This document shows, piece after piece, positions 3,050 through 46,897 of a stretch of 64,000 nt of DNA (positions within the stretch are counted from its first letter, which is position 1; the number at the start of each line of letters is the position of its first letter). Source of the stretch: Bacillus sp. FJAT-22090 (GTDB lineage: Bacteria; Bacillota; Bacilli; Bacillales_A; Planococcaceae); the NCBI RefSeq assembly GCF_001278755.1, contig NZ_CP012601.1, forward strand, positions 1,860,001-1,924,000, in the 5' to 3' direction. Made by a program: the position numbers and the translations under genes. Below the pieces are notes generated by a model. It searched no databases. It worked only from the letters and a program-made list of their open reading frames with translations, and was not told the DNA's origin.

Positions 3050-3490
3050 TTTTCATTTTACTCTTTTTATCCAGCACATTGCTCCTGCCCACAACTCGTC
3101 GCAGTGGGTATTACCATTCGCGGGAAAAATAGGCGCTTGCGCATTTCTTTTTGTCCAGCTCCAGCGCCTTGCCCCTCGGGGTCAAATGTGAAAAAGCTGC
3201 TCCTGCGCAAGCTCGTCGCAAACTTCAAACAATTAAACCGTTTGTGGTGGCTGAAGAGCTGCCTCCTCGCTTTTCCCCATTTGCCTGTCGGGAGGCCCAC
3301 AGGAAGTGGGTCATGCAGTCGTTGCGACACGATGTCGCGAACTTAGACTGTATTCCTATACTAGTCGCTTGCGCATTTCAAGATATCCAGTTGCAGCGCT
3401 TTGCCCTTCGAGGTCAAATGTGATTCTTCTACGTCCAACAGGGTTGGACATAGAATTTTCTCATTTGCTTGTCAGGGCAGAACAAGCGCT
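3050..3490. repeat. Dispersed GC-rich intergenic repeat, copy R1 (compound)
   Basis: A GC-rich, non-coding stretch in the yloU-rpmB gap. Near 3155-3190 it carries the motif GTCCAGCTCCAGCGCCTTG followed by GGTCAAATGTG. Near 3245-3300 it has TGGTGGCTGAAGAGCTGCC and the CATTTGCCTGTCGGGAGG-type end. The opening motif recurs in altered form near 3388-3420, so it looks like at least two fused or nested copies. A near-palindrome (GTCCAAC/GTTGGAC) lies at about 3432-3450. Related copies are at 9076-9290 and, inverted, at 16864-16982. The short open frames inside are not credible genes. Confidence 0.75.
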
Positions 3491-39187: not shown

Positions 39188-40645
39188 TTACAATTCTTTT
39201 GCTATTTCCTTAACAATTTCATCAATCGTTGAGGATGTCCCTGATTTATTTTGAACTAATACACTAAAGATGTATGATTGCCCGCTACTTGCTTCTAAAT
39301 ATCCACTCAGTGTACTAACACCCGTTAATGAACCTGTTTTTGCATAGACTTTTCCTGCAGTCAGTTGATCTTTTAATCGATTTCTTAAAGTGCCTCCTAC
39401 CATTCGATCGGTATTAGCAGCTACTGGTAAGCTAGTAAAATAGGTATTAAACCAATCTTCTCCTTGCACTTTATATAATAATTCACTCACTGCCAAACTT
39501 GAAACCCTATTTTCATGAGACATTCCAGATCCATCTTCAAATTGCCAATCAACCATATTTAAATTAATTGATTTTCCATATTCTCTAATAACTTCTAAGC
39601 CAGCTGTTGTACTACCTTCATTTTTTTTCACTTTTCCCATTGTTTTTACTAAAATATCCGCAATTCCATTATTACTTAGTTTCATATACGGGATTAATAG
39701 TTGCTCCAGTGTCATCGATTGCTTCATAGCAACTAGTTGTGCACTTTTTGGTGTTGCTGCTCTAAATAATTTCTCTTTTGAATACTCAATTCCTGCTTCA
39801 GCTAAAACTGCCTGGAACATTGTTAATGTATGTGTCGTAGGATGTTTGACAGTCACCCATTCTTTTTTAGTTTTATCAACTGGAAGGTTCCCACTAATGA
39901 CAATCTGATTTGTTTCATACATTCTTTCTATCGTTACTGTATTTGTTTTTCCTGCTTCCACTGTCTGTGCTTCATTTACTATTTGTAAATCACCAATGTG
40001 CGGAGTTACATTAATGGACGGTAACTCTCCAACAGCAGTTCCAGTTGCTTCTACGATAATCGTTCCCGAATCGTAGTCTGTGTTTGGAGAAGTTGTTAAA
40101 GCTGAAATAGGTGCAGCGTAATAATAAGACTCGTCCCCAACCCAAATTCCCGGAGTTAATAAATCATCATCAAACCATTTGTCATCACCGACAATCCGTC
40201 CGTCAATTTTATTAATACCCTGTGCTTTTAACTCTTCTGCGAACTGTTGTAAATCTTCAAAGGATAGAGTAGGATCACCTTGTCCTTTTAAATAAACATC
40301 TCCTTTTAAGACTCCATTTGACATCTTACCTGAAGTATAAAGAGTTGTATTAAAACGGTAATCTTTTCCTAATACATCTAAAGCTGCTGCAGTAGTTAAC
40401 AGTTTCATATTAGAGGCTGGTTTTATAGTTGTTTGACCATTGTAATTATATACCATTTCTCCAGACACTCGATCTCTAACCGTAACACTAACATCTGCAC
40501 CAGCTAATTTTTCTTCTATTATCTTAGTAATAGAATCACTTAATGTTTTTTCCATTGTTTCTTCTGCTTGAGCAACATTGTTAAAACCAAACAGACTCAC
40601 AACCAACATCCACGTCATCACCATGGCAGTCCACTTTTTCTTCAT
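39188..40645 (-). CDS. D-alanyl-D-alanine carboxypeptidase/endopeptidase (PBP4 type, peptidase S13)
   Basis: A 485-residue exported penicillin-binding protein of the DacC/PBP4a class, which trims peptidoglycan side chains and cross-links. The signal peptide is MKKKWTAMVMTWMLVVSLFG ending near NNVAQA. The active-site motif SxxK is in KPASNMKLL (about residue 82), the SxN motif is KLSNNG (about 333), and the KTG motif is YAKTGSLTG (about 435). A large insert between SxxK and SxN is characteristic of S13. It stands alone, with a terminator behind it and no obvious partner. B. subtilis dacC is a stationary-phase gene, but the promoter type here is not evident. Confidence 0.93.
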   Translation of the reverse strand: MKKKWTAMVMTWMLVVSLFGFNNVAQAEETMEKTLSDSITKIIEEKLAGADVSVTVRDRVSGEMVYNYNGQTTIKPASNMKLLTTAAALDVLGKDYRFNTTLYTSGKMSNGVLKGDVYLKGQGDPTLSFEDLQQFAEELKAQGINKIDGRIVGDDKWFDDDLLTPGIWVGDESYYYAAPISALTTSPNTDYDSGTIIVEATGTAVGELPSINVTPHIGDLQIVNEAQTVEAGKTNTVTIERMYETNQIVISGNLPVDKTKKEWVTVKHPTTHTLTMFQAVLAEAGIEYSKEKLFRAATPKSAQLVAMKQSMTLEQLLIPYMKLSNNGIADILVKTMGKVKKNEGSTTAGLEVIREYGKSINLNMVDWQFEDGSGMSHENRVSSLAVSELLYKVQGEDWFNTYFTSLPVAANTDRMVGGTLRNRLKDQLTAGKVYAKTGSLTGVSTLSGYLEASSGQSYIFSVLVQNKSGTSSTIDEIVKEIAKEL

Positions 40646-40887
40646 AGTTTCCCCCTATATTAACTGAATTTTTAATCTTTTCCAAAGATATATATTCTTC
40701 ATGAAGAAAAATTCTCCTTTAATTCTATTTAAAACAGGTATATAGATAGAGTTTTCTTAATTAAACGAACATCTATAAACCCATATTTTAATTTAAAATC
40801 ATGTCAAACGTCTTATAATACACCTATAACCAATGAGTAAAGAAAATTTTTTTCAACCTTTAATTTGAATATAATTTCCTAAACAAC

Positions 40888-40921
40888 AAAAAAAAGCCGC
40901 CACCGATTACTCGGTGACTAC
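40888..40921 (-). terminator. Terminator of 5S-fragment unit A
   Basis: CGGTGGCGGC-type stem (GCCGCCACCGA / TCGGTGACTAC on plus) with an A run at 40888-40895, that is, a T run in the minus direction. Slightly degenerate against the three other copies. Confidence 0.75.
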
Positions 40922-40930
40922 TTTTCAATT

Positions 40931-41005
40931 GCCCAGCGACGTCCTACTCTCACAGGGGGAGACCCCCAACTACCATCGGCGCGCGAGCTTCACTTCCTTG
41001 TTCGG
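40931..41005 (-). pseudogene. 5S rRNA 3'-part fragment, unit A
   Basis: 75 nt matching the 3' two-thirds of the intact 5S at 41786-41901, with a 3-nt shortening in the middle (CGGCGCGCGAGC for CGGCGCTGAAGAGC) and a further two or three substitutions. The 5' part of 5S is missing and replaced by an unrelated spacer. Most diverged of the three fragments. Confidence 0.85.
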
Positions 41006-41031
41006 GCTACGAAAGCAGATGAACGGCAGAT

Positions 41032-41118
41032 TTCTTCGTCAGCCGCGGTCGTTCGATTCTCGCGTATATCATACGCTGCGAGCCTCTCTTCCTTGCTTCC
41101 TCGAACTCTTTGTTCCTC
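41032..41118. repeat. rRNA spacer element, copy 1
   Basis: TTCTTCGTCAGC...CGTTCG, a central hairpin CTCGCGTATATCATACGCTGCGAG-type, then GCTTCCTCGAACTCTTTGT. Shares its ends with copies at 41929-42026 and 45044-45141; the central stem sequence differs between copies. Confidence 0.7.
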
Positions 41119-41172
41119 TACTTTCTCGCAAATAAAACTACTATTCTTTGCCTTCGGCTTTTTTAGTACAAC

Positions 41173-41205
41173 AAAAAAAGCCACCACCGATTGCTCGGTG
41201 ACGAC
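41173..41205 (-). terminator. Terminator of 5S-fragment unit B
   Basis: Stem of about 11 bp from the CACCACCGA / TCGGTGACG arms with a 7-nt T run in the minus direction. Same family as the true 5S terminator. Confidence 0.8.
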
Positions 41206-41214
41206 TTTTCTAGT

Positions 41215-41289
41215 GCCCAGCGACGTCCTACTCTCACAGGGGGAGACCCCCAACTACCATCGGCGCGCGAGCTTAACTTCCGTGTTCGG
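41215..41289 (-). pseudogene. 5S rRNA 3'-part fragment, unit B
   Basis: Same 75-nt 3' fragment as unit A with the same 3-nt internal shortening. 284 nt from unit A, 287 nt from unit C. Confidence 0.87.
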
Positions 41290-41315
41290 GCTTCGAAAGC
41301 AGATGAACGGCAGAT

Positions 41316-41402
41316 TTCTTCGTCAGCCGCGGTCGTTCGATTCTCGCGTATATCATACGCTGCGAGCCTCTCTTCCTTGCTTCCTCGAACTCTTTGTTCC
41401 TC
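41316..41402. repeat. rRNA spacer element, copy 2
   Basis: Identical in layout to copy 1: TTCTTCGTCAGC end, central hairpin, CTTCCTCGAACT end. Confidence 0.7.
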
Positions 41403-41459
41403 TACTTTCTCGCAAATAAAACTACTATTCTTTGCCTTCGGCTTTTTTTTTAGTACAAC

Positions 41460-41492
41460 AAAAAAAGCCGCCACCGATTACTCGGTGACGAC
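41460..41492 (-). terminator. Terminator of 5S-fragment unit C
   Basis: GCCGCCACCGA / TCGGTGACGAC stem with a T run in the minus direction. Confidence 0.8.
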
Positions 41493-41501
41493 TTTTCAAT
41501 T

Positions 41502-41576
41502 GCCCAGCGACGTCCTACTCTCACAGGGGGAGACCCCCAACTACCATCAGCGCGCGAGCTTAACTTCCGTGTTCGG
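41502..41576 (-). pseudogene. 5S rRNA 3'-part fragment, unit C
   Basis: 75-nt 3' fragment, closest to the intact 5S, carrying the same 3-nt internal shortening. 284 nt from the intact gene. Confidence 0.87.
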
Positions 41577-41602
41577 GCTACGAAAGCAGATGAACGGCAG
41601 AT

Positions 41603-41689
41603 TTCTTCGTCAGCCGCGGTCGTTCGATTCTCGCGTATATCATACGCTGCGAGCCTCTCTTCCTTGCTTCCTCGAACTCTTTGTTCCTC
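41603..41689. repeat. rRNA spacer element, copy 3
   Basis: Third copy within the 5S-fragment array, near-identical to copies 1 and 2. Confidence 0.7.
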
Positions 41690-41743
41690 TACTTTCTCGC
41701 AAATAAAACTACTATTCTTTGCCTTCGGCTTTTTTAGTACAAC

Positions 41744-41776
41744 AAAAAAAGCCGCCACCGATTACTCGGTGACGAC
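41744..41776 (-). terminator. Terminator of the rRNA operon (intact 5S)
   Basis: GTCGTCACCGA / TCGGTGGCGGC stem with a 4-nt loop and a 7-nt T run on the minus strand, 9 nt past the 5S 3' end. Confidence 0.88.
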
Positions 41777-41785
41777 TTTTCTAGT

Positions 41786-41901
41786 GCCCAGCGACGTCCT
41801 ACTCTCACAGGGGGAGACCCCCAACTACCATCGGCGCTGAAGAGCTTAACTTCCGTGTTCGGTATGGGAACGGGTGTGACCTCTTCGCCATCATCACTAG
41901 A
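41786..41901 (-). rRNA. rrf: 5S ribosomal RNA (intact)
   Basis: About 116 nt. On the minus strand it reads TAGTGATGATGGCGAAGAGG at the 5' end, then ACACCCGTTCCCATACCGAA, GTTAAGCTCTTCAGCGCC and GTAGTTGGGGGT, and ends in GACGTCGCTGGGCA. It has the complete helix set of a Bacillales 5S. End positions are good to a few nucleotides. Confidence 0.95.
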
Positions 41902-41928
41902 CTCTTCGGCTTTCCATACACATCGTAC

Positions 41929-42026
41929 TTCTTCGTCAACTTCATTCGTTCGGTCAGTCACGTACTTGAGTACGCTCCTTTCCTCTCTCAATCGTTTCCT
42001 TGAATTACTCGTGTCTAGAAACCCTC
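41929..42026. repeat. rRNA spacer element, copy 4 (23S-5S spacer)
   Basis: TTCTTCGTCAACTTC end, central hairpin CGTACTTGAGTACG, then GTTTCCTTGAATTACTCGTG and GTCTAGAAACCCTC. It fills most of the 186-nt 23S-5S spacer, which has no tRNA. Confidence 0.65.
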
Positions 42027-42087
42027 TTATTAGAGTGCTTGTTCACTCAAAACTGGATAAAAGACATTGGTGCTCGCAAATTCATAT

Positions 42088-45016
<2,929 letters not shown>

Positions 45017-45043
45017 TAATTCGGCTTTCAATACACGGCGCAT

Positions 45044-45141
45044 TTCTTCGTCAGCTTCGCTCGTTCACATCCTCACGTACGTTAGTACGTTCCGGTGTTC
45101 ACTCACTCGCTTCCTCGAACTGCTTGTGTCTTGAAACCCTC
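45044..45141. repeat. rRNA spacer element, copy 5 (16S-23S spacer)
   Basis: TTCTTCGTCAGCTTCGCTCG end, central hairpin CGTACGTTAGTACG, then GCTTCCTCGAACTGCTTGTG and GAAACCCTC. The whole 16S-23S spacer (45017-45340) contains no tRNA gene. Confidence 0.7.
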
Positions 45142-45236
45142 AAATATAGTAGTTAAAAGTACTACACAAAAAATAATCACGAATGTGATTACAAATTGAA
45201 TTTCTTGAATTTGTTGCTTTCAATGTCGTTTTATCC

Positions 45237-45336: not shown

Positions 45337-46897
<1,561 letters not shown>

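Follow-up and report, generated by a model that had tools for sequence, protein, structure and literature searches.

It was found that the 5S rRNA gene of one rrn operon of Bacillus sp. FJAT-22090, a Psychrobacillus with a closed genome of 4.21 Mb, is followed by three tandem chimeric units, in each of which a conserved, covarying RNA domain (the rod) is joined to the 3' part of 5S rRNA and to a copy of the 5S terminator. The reading favoured here, with a probability of roughly 0.5, is that the unit is an old operon-end module, made of a 5'-boundary or processing rod, a 5S without its 5' third and a terminator, which were duplicated together. The operon lies on the minus strand, in the order 16S-23S-5S, of the 64,000-nucleotide stretch of DNA that was analysed (the window; Table 1). 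The rod pattern was matched three times in the window, versus no match in 100 shuffles.

Table 1. Positions of the operon and array features in the window, and loci of relatives at which rods abut a stable RNA
Feature	Position or locus	Strand	Evidence
16S rRNA gene	45343..46896	-	Rfam RF00177, 1645.7 bits
Rod of the 16S-23S spacer, last base directly before 23S	45017..45143	-	model R1 90.6 bits; fold z -5.46
23S rRNA gene	42088..45016	-	Rfam RF02541
Rod of the 23S-5S spacer, end 2 nt before 5S	41904..42028	-	model R1 66.1 bits; fold z -5.05
5S rRNA gene, intact	41786..41901	-	Rfam RF00001, 98 bits
Terminator of the intact 5S	41744..41780	-	hairpin, then 7 T
Unit 1 linker mini-hairpin, GCC-GAA-GGC	41721..41729	-	sequence
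Unit 1 rod	41576..41700	-	model R1 149.3 bits; fold z -2.98
Unit 1 truncated 5S, from 5S nt 40, net 2 nt shorter	41502..41576	-	sequence
Unit 1 terminator copy	41460..41496	-	sequence
Unit 2 rod	41289..41413	-	model R1 148.8 bits
Unit 2 truncated 5S	41215..41289	-	RF00001 40.5 bits with rod end included
Unit 2 terminator copy	41173..41209	-	sequence
Unit 3 rod	41005..41129	-	model R1 149.3 bits
Unit 3 truncated 5S, two more substitutions	40931..41005	-	sequence
Unit 3 terminator copy, last of the array	40888..40925	-	sequence
Rods abutting 16S, relatives	L275, L288		
Rods abutting 23S, relatives	L289, L294, L302, L303		
Rods abutting 5S, relatives	L280, L290, L300		
Rods abutting tRNA-Phe, relatives	most of eight loci		
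Rods abutting tRNA-Val, relatives	L282		
Rods abutting tmRNA, relatives	L293, L254		

Read 5' to 3', each unit consists of a linker with a mini-hairpin, a rod of ~125 nt, a 75-nt piece of 5S and a copy of the 5S terminator. The start-to-start distances are 284 and 287 nt and the identity is 94-98%, and this repeat comparison confirmed the original prediction of three tandem units of 284-287 nt, each with a 3' piece of 5S and a terminator. The first 39 nt of 5S are gone from the pieces, which start at nt 40; the rod end and the piece of unit 1 have one base in common, at a junction whose position is ambiguous. An internal change from CTCTTCAGCGCC in the intact gene to CTCGCGCGCC is common to all three units, which bears out the proposed descent from one altered copy. 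The internal shortening is net 2 nt, not 3 nt as first stated, because the intact 5S measured from the same start is 77 nt long and the unit piece 75. Together with the terminator of the intact 5S, the unit copies make the predicted series of four, each with a hairpin and a T run. The "spacer element" described earlier is indeed present, but it was missed that this element is a covarying RNA domain, further copies of which stand in both spacers of this operon. Among themselves, the unit rods of the window are identical or one base apart, and therefore the array was expanded or homogenised recently. The array length and the small differences point to recombination between copies, in line with the suggestion that the array may be a recombination product.

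Inspection of the whole genome with RF00001 gave nine intact 5S genes (96-98 bits) and six partial ones (32-40 bits), the partial matches of units borrowing rod sequence. Full units lie behind the 5S at four of the nine operons, with three units in the window and one each at 3094248, 3177166 and 3422204. Two of the remaining operons carry deletion remnants of units, one has the 5S and terminator only, and two continue into tRNA clusters. The rod of the 23S-5S spacer is absent from four of the nine. Because units are missing from several of these operons and from half of the other Psychrobacillus species, and the 23S-5S rod from four operons, neither is essential. It was also observed that, of three operons without a rod before 5S (sites L045 84, L046 3585 and L048), at least two have a promoter-like sequence, TTGTAA..TATAAT, in its place, so that the 5S there may have its own promoter. 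Near-identical tandem repeats are easy to miscount, and the count of three at the window locus rests on the assembly; nevertheless, four separate rrn loci of this closed genome have units, and tandem units are present in many other assemblies, closed ones included. The chance that the array is an assembly artefact is thus negligible, and as a general explanation the artefact is excluded by the arrays of relatives.

The structure of the rod is conserved and covaries beyond the level of shuffled and slid controls, and the rod thus counts as a structured RNA family (model R1). Among 19 tail rods from three genera, 96.6% of the cells were paired and nine pairs were double-changed, versus 5.2 after shuffling, while slid-partner controls gave a pairing of at most 46%. 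Over 83 rods from all positions, in an alignment that was fitted to the model and hence favours it, 92.8% were paired, 33 of 36 pairs showed double changes, and the covariation was 0.628, versus 0.210 for shuffled and at most 0.114 for slid partners. One fold is common to the tail, 23S-5S, 16S-23S, tRNA, tmRNA and 16S copies (z of -3.0 to -7.7). The compensatory changes include AGC/GCU to AAC/GUU and to ACC/GGU, G-C in ten copies and A-U in nine at columns 16/110, and G-C to C-G at columns 9/117. No family of Rfam 15 matched the rod, and only 5S, 16S and 23S reached the gathering score in the operon. The covariation among the tail rods alone argues that the tail copies are transcribed, and therefore that some polymerase passes the first terminator.

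All 28 rods that model R1 detects in this genome lie in rRNA or tRNA operons. They are found in tail units and their remnants, in the 16S-23S spacer (eight), in the 23S-5S spacer (five) and between tRNA-Asp and tRNA-Phe (seven, arranged as tandem pairs or a triple). In the relatives inspected, the gap between a rod and the mature 5' end of the stable RNA behind it is usually 0-6 nt, and the tail unit keeps this order, with the 5S piece directly behind its rod. One departure is a rod about 20 nt before 5S at L309. The clearest exception to the position rule within the family is an array of four tandem rods in the Paenisporosarcina-like genome G085 (L281 578-1039, minus strand), which occupies an ordinary intergenic region with a glmS ribozyme nearby. 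Weak dispersed matches were found in other families. Those at L311-L314 belong to large genomes of family f3, some of them lying within outer stems GTTCAAAAA..TTTTTGAAC; at L304, L305 and L308, in two other families, rod-like matches are on the opposite strand to T-box leaders or overlap them.

Because the rod precedes six kinds of stable RNA and keeps its fold, we infer that, in the primary transcript, it serves to mark the 5' boundary of a stable RNA or to insulate it. At that boundary, the rod would let the precursor fold and be cut correctly. The strongest of the alternatives, and the main rival, is that the rod is a selfish structured repeat of the MITE or bcr type, which is tolerated before stable RNAs because their flanks are cut away, the tail units being a passive by-product. 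Such a repeat would account for spacer rods that are present at some operons of one genome and absent from others, for the tandem rods before tRNA-Phe, for the four-copy intergenic array of G085 and for the weaker dispersed matches in other families. It would also account for two sites before 23S in genome G207, one filled and the other apparently empty, with a masked stretch between them. The two 16S-23S spacer ends of that genome, with and without a rod, lie at L310 434-570 and 900-931, and ACAAGCC flanks the insert on both sides. The rod ends pair as a helix; the 7-nt direct repeat was seen at this one filled/empty pair and at none of the others compared. However, neither a mobility gene nor a constant target duplication was seen, all of the 28 copies here are inside stable-RNA operons, and compensatory changes are found across genera. 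Spread over unrelated intergenic sites in the manner of MITEs or bcr repeats was not seen in this genome, and was seen in part in others.

The way in which rods are inherited also argues against a selfish repeat, since the position classes form largely separate lineages rather than being re-copied within a genome. In a tree of 69 rods, which are short sequences and leave many forks weak, tail copies grouped across genera with three label changes, versus a mean of 22.9 after shuffling, and none of 500 shuffles was as low as three. The pre-tRNA rods formed one supported clade, the pre-tmRNA rods likewise one clade, and the rods of one genome did not cluster by genome. Since the tail rods group by position class, the units were not copied recently from the spacer rods of their own operon. 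On balance, the selfish repeat was considered an unlikely explanation.

Homologous units were found in nine of the 18 other Psychrobacillus species searched, with up to three in tandem. Beyond Psychrobacillus, four more genera of its family have the cassette, including Paenisporosarcina and Filibacter, and it was also found in three other families of Bacilli (genomes G316, G384 and G392). The junction of the Psychrobacillus units (..GCAGCC|CGAACACGG..) is seen in g11 (Paenisporosarcina) and Filibacter tadaridae; the units of genera g10 and g18 are related ones. The altered ancestral copy is far older than could be seen in the original prediction, because several genera share one rod-to-5S junction and other families have a junction like it. 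In every case (genera g1, g11, g3, g10, g18 and the three other families), the units have the 5S terminator of their own host, and their 5S piece often carries 5S variants of that host, e.g. CTGCAAGAG. The module is inherited across genera and present in other families, with 5S and terminator parts that resemble those of the host. A further ~25-30 nt of the 5S piece were lost in two lineages (G002/G010/G011 and G028/G085). Between species the rod core is more alike than the adjoining linker, and the stem of the linker mini-hairpin in other genera and families is GCC/GGC, ACC/GGT, CCC/GGG or AACC/GGTT. In a plasmid search for named relatives, the listed matches covered only the 5S part of the query, with the exception of one record. 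A plasmid record labelled Stenotrophomonas rhizophila (L320, CP065518.1), possibly mislabelled or contaminated, begins with part of a tail unit.

These features can be combined in the operon-end module favoured above. The end of an operon, with rod, 5S and terminator, would have been duplicated, and the 5' part of the 5S would then have been lost, probably by recombination at the CCGAA that the rod end and the 5S have in common. Unequal crossing-over of near-identical repeats may set the number of units, and gene conversion may hold the 5S piece and terminator close to those of the host. Read-through of a leaky first terminator would transcribe the units, and every copy would cut or end this read-through afresh. 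It had also been suggested that the four serial terminators could be a fail-safe; such a fail-safe would shield the genes behind the operon from rrn read-through. Every unit does keep a strong hairpin and T run, and the gene after the array in the window (39188-40645) runs in the array direction. Nevertheless, operon H has no unit, although its 5S is followed within a few hundred nt by a frame of the same direction, and in relatives units also precede oppositely directed frames; no relation between unit number and the direction of the next gene was found, in a comparison of open frames at few operons. Plain terminator repeats would be enough for shielding, and the part whose sequence is conserved between genera is the rod, not the terminator. 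The fail-safe was therefore judged to be very unlikely.

Another possibility is that each unit is a small stable RNA gene, in which the rod and a 5S-like domain act on ribosomes, for instance as a ligand of 5S-binding proteins or, in g10 and g18, as a pairing partner of 5S. The unit follows the order of rod and then stable RNA, the sequence of helices IV/V of 5S is kept in most units, and the two ends of the remaining 5S piece of G085 are complementary (GCCUAGCG/CGCUAGGC). The tail-unit linker of g10 and g18 contains a hairpin-split stretch antisense to intact 5S (GCGCCGA..GGTAGTTGGGGGCTTC; L246 at about 150-220, and L238, L252 and L242). This antisense stretch tracks species-specific changes of 5S, with duplex z of about -2 to -6, and in most units it pairs better with intact 5S than with the piece of its own unit. 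On the other hand, a common fold of the 5S pieces was looked for across genera and none was found, the antisense arm is absent from Psychrobacillus units, and a consensus scan of the units gave no promoter-like site on the array strand. The likeness to host 5S would also be expected from gene conversion. An independent small RNA was thus considered highly improbable. A wider hypothesis joins both ideas: the rod would be one 5'-boundary device for the stable RNAs (16S, 23S, 5S, tRNA and tmRNA) of many Bacilli, with one factor that recognises it at all of them, and the tail units would be dedicated non-coding RNA genes, in which the device and a recruited 5S piece, with an antisense arm to 5S in two genera, could tune 5S folding or ribosome assembly. 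This hypothesis was regarded as rather improbable.

Searches for RNA motifs readily mask or discard rRNA and tRNA operon spacers, as was done with such clusters in PMC2267715, and a conserved domain located there could therefore stay unseen. If the rod marks 5' ends, it would offer a testable common maturation step for stable RNAs whose maturation is attributed to different nucleases. In the truncated 5S cassettes, a piece of rRNA is kept in a new context across family-level distances, and such cassettes are likely annotated as false or partial 5S genes.

We could find no counterpart of the tandem rod-5S-terminator cassette in Rfam or in the open-access literature, in which no description of the units or the rod was found; the original prediction had likewise known of none. 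Compared with 5S rRNA (RF00001), the units have 5S sequence in the last ~75 nt before each terminator, but they are without one strand of helices I, II and III and contain no complete three-way junction. The pre-rRNA processing stalks, which are substrates of RNase III, Mini-III and M5, are formed by the base-paired flanks of one rRNA. Like them, the rod is base-paired spacer RNA next to mature rRNA ends; unlike them, it closes on itself, is confined to the 5' side and is also found before tRNA and tmRNA. The bcr1-bcr18 repeats of Bacillus cereus and other stem-loop repeats of Bacilli are structured, multi-copy, partly transcribed and intergenic (PMC3446304, PMC2267715), and 11 cluster groups inside rRNA precursors, including groups of B. 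halodurans and B. subtilis, were set aside in one of these studies (PMC2267715). Repeats of the bcr type are dispersed over the genome, whereas the rods of the genome analysed here were found only in stable-RNA operons, a separation based on distribution.

Within the window, a Bacillaceae-1 RNA (RF01690, 72.7 bits) was observed at 3296-3362 on the minus strand, a few hundred bases from a putative rpmB, and two copies of a 62-nt repeat (3130-3191 and 3362-3423) flank it. The covariance model of RF01690 gave no match to 40860-42090 up to an E value of 10. The Bacillaceae-1 RNA has two small hairpins in 67 positions, whereas the rod has another fold and length. In genome G383 (L302 77-144), a Bacillaceae-1 RNA ends at the base before 5S, which is the same position rule as that of the rod. 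This RNA of Bacillaceae is, like the rod, structured and lies beside stable-RNA genes. The Bacillaceae-1 RNA is the nearest known thing to the rod, both being structured RNAs of stable-RNA operons.
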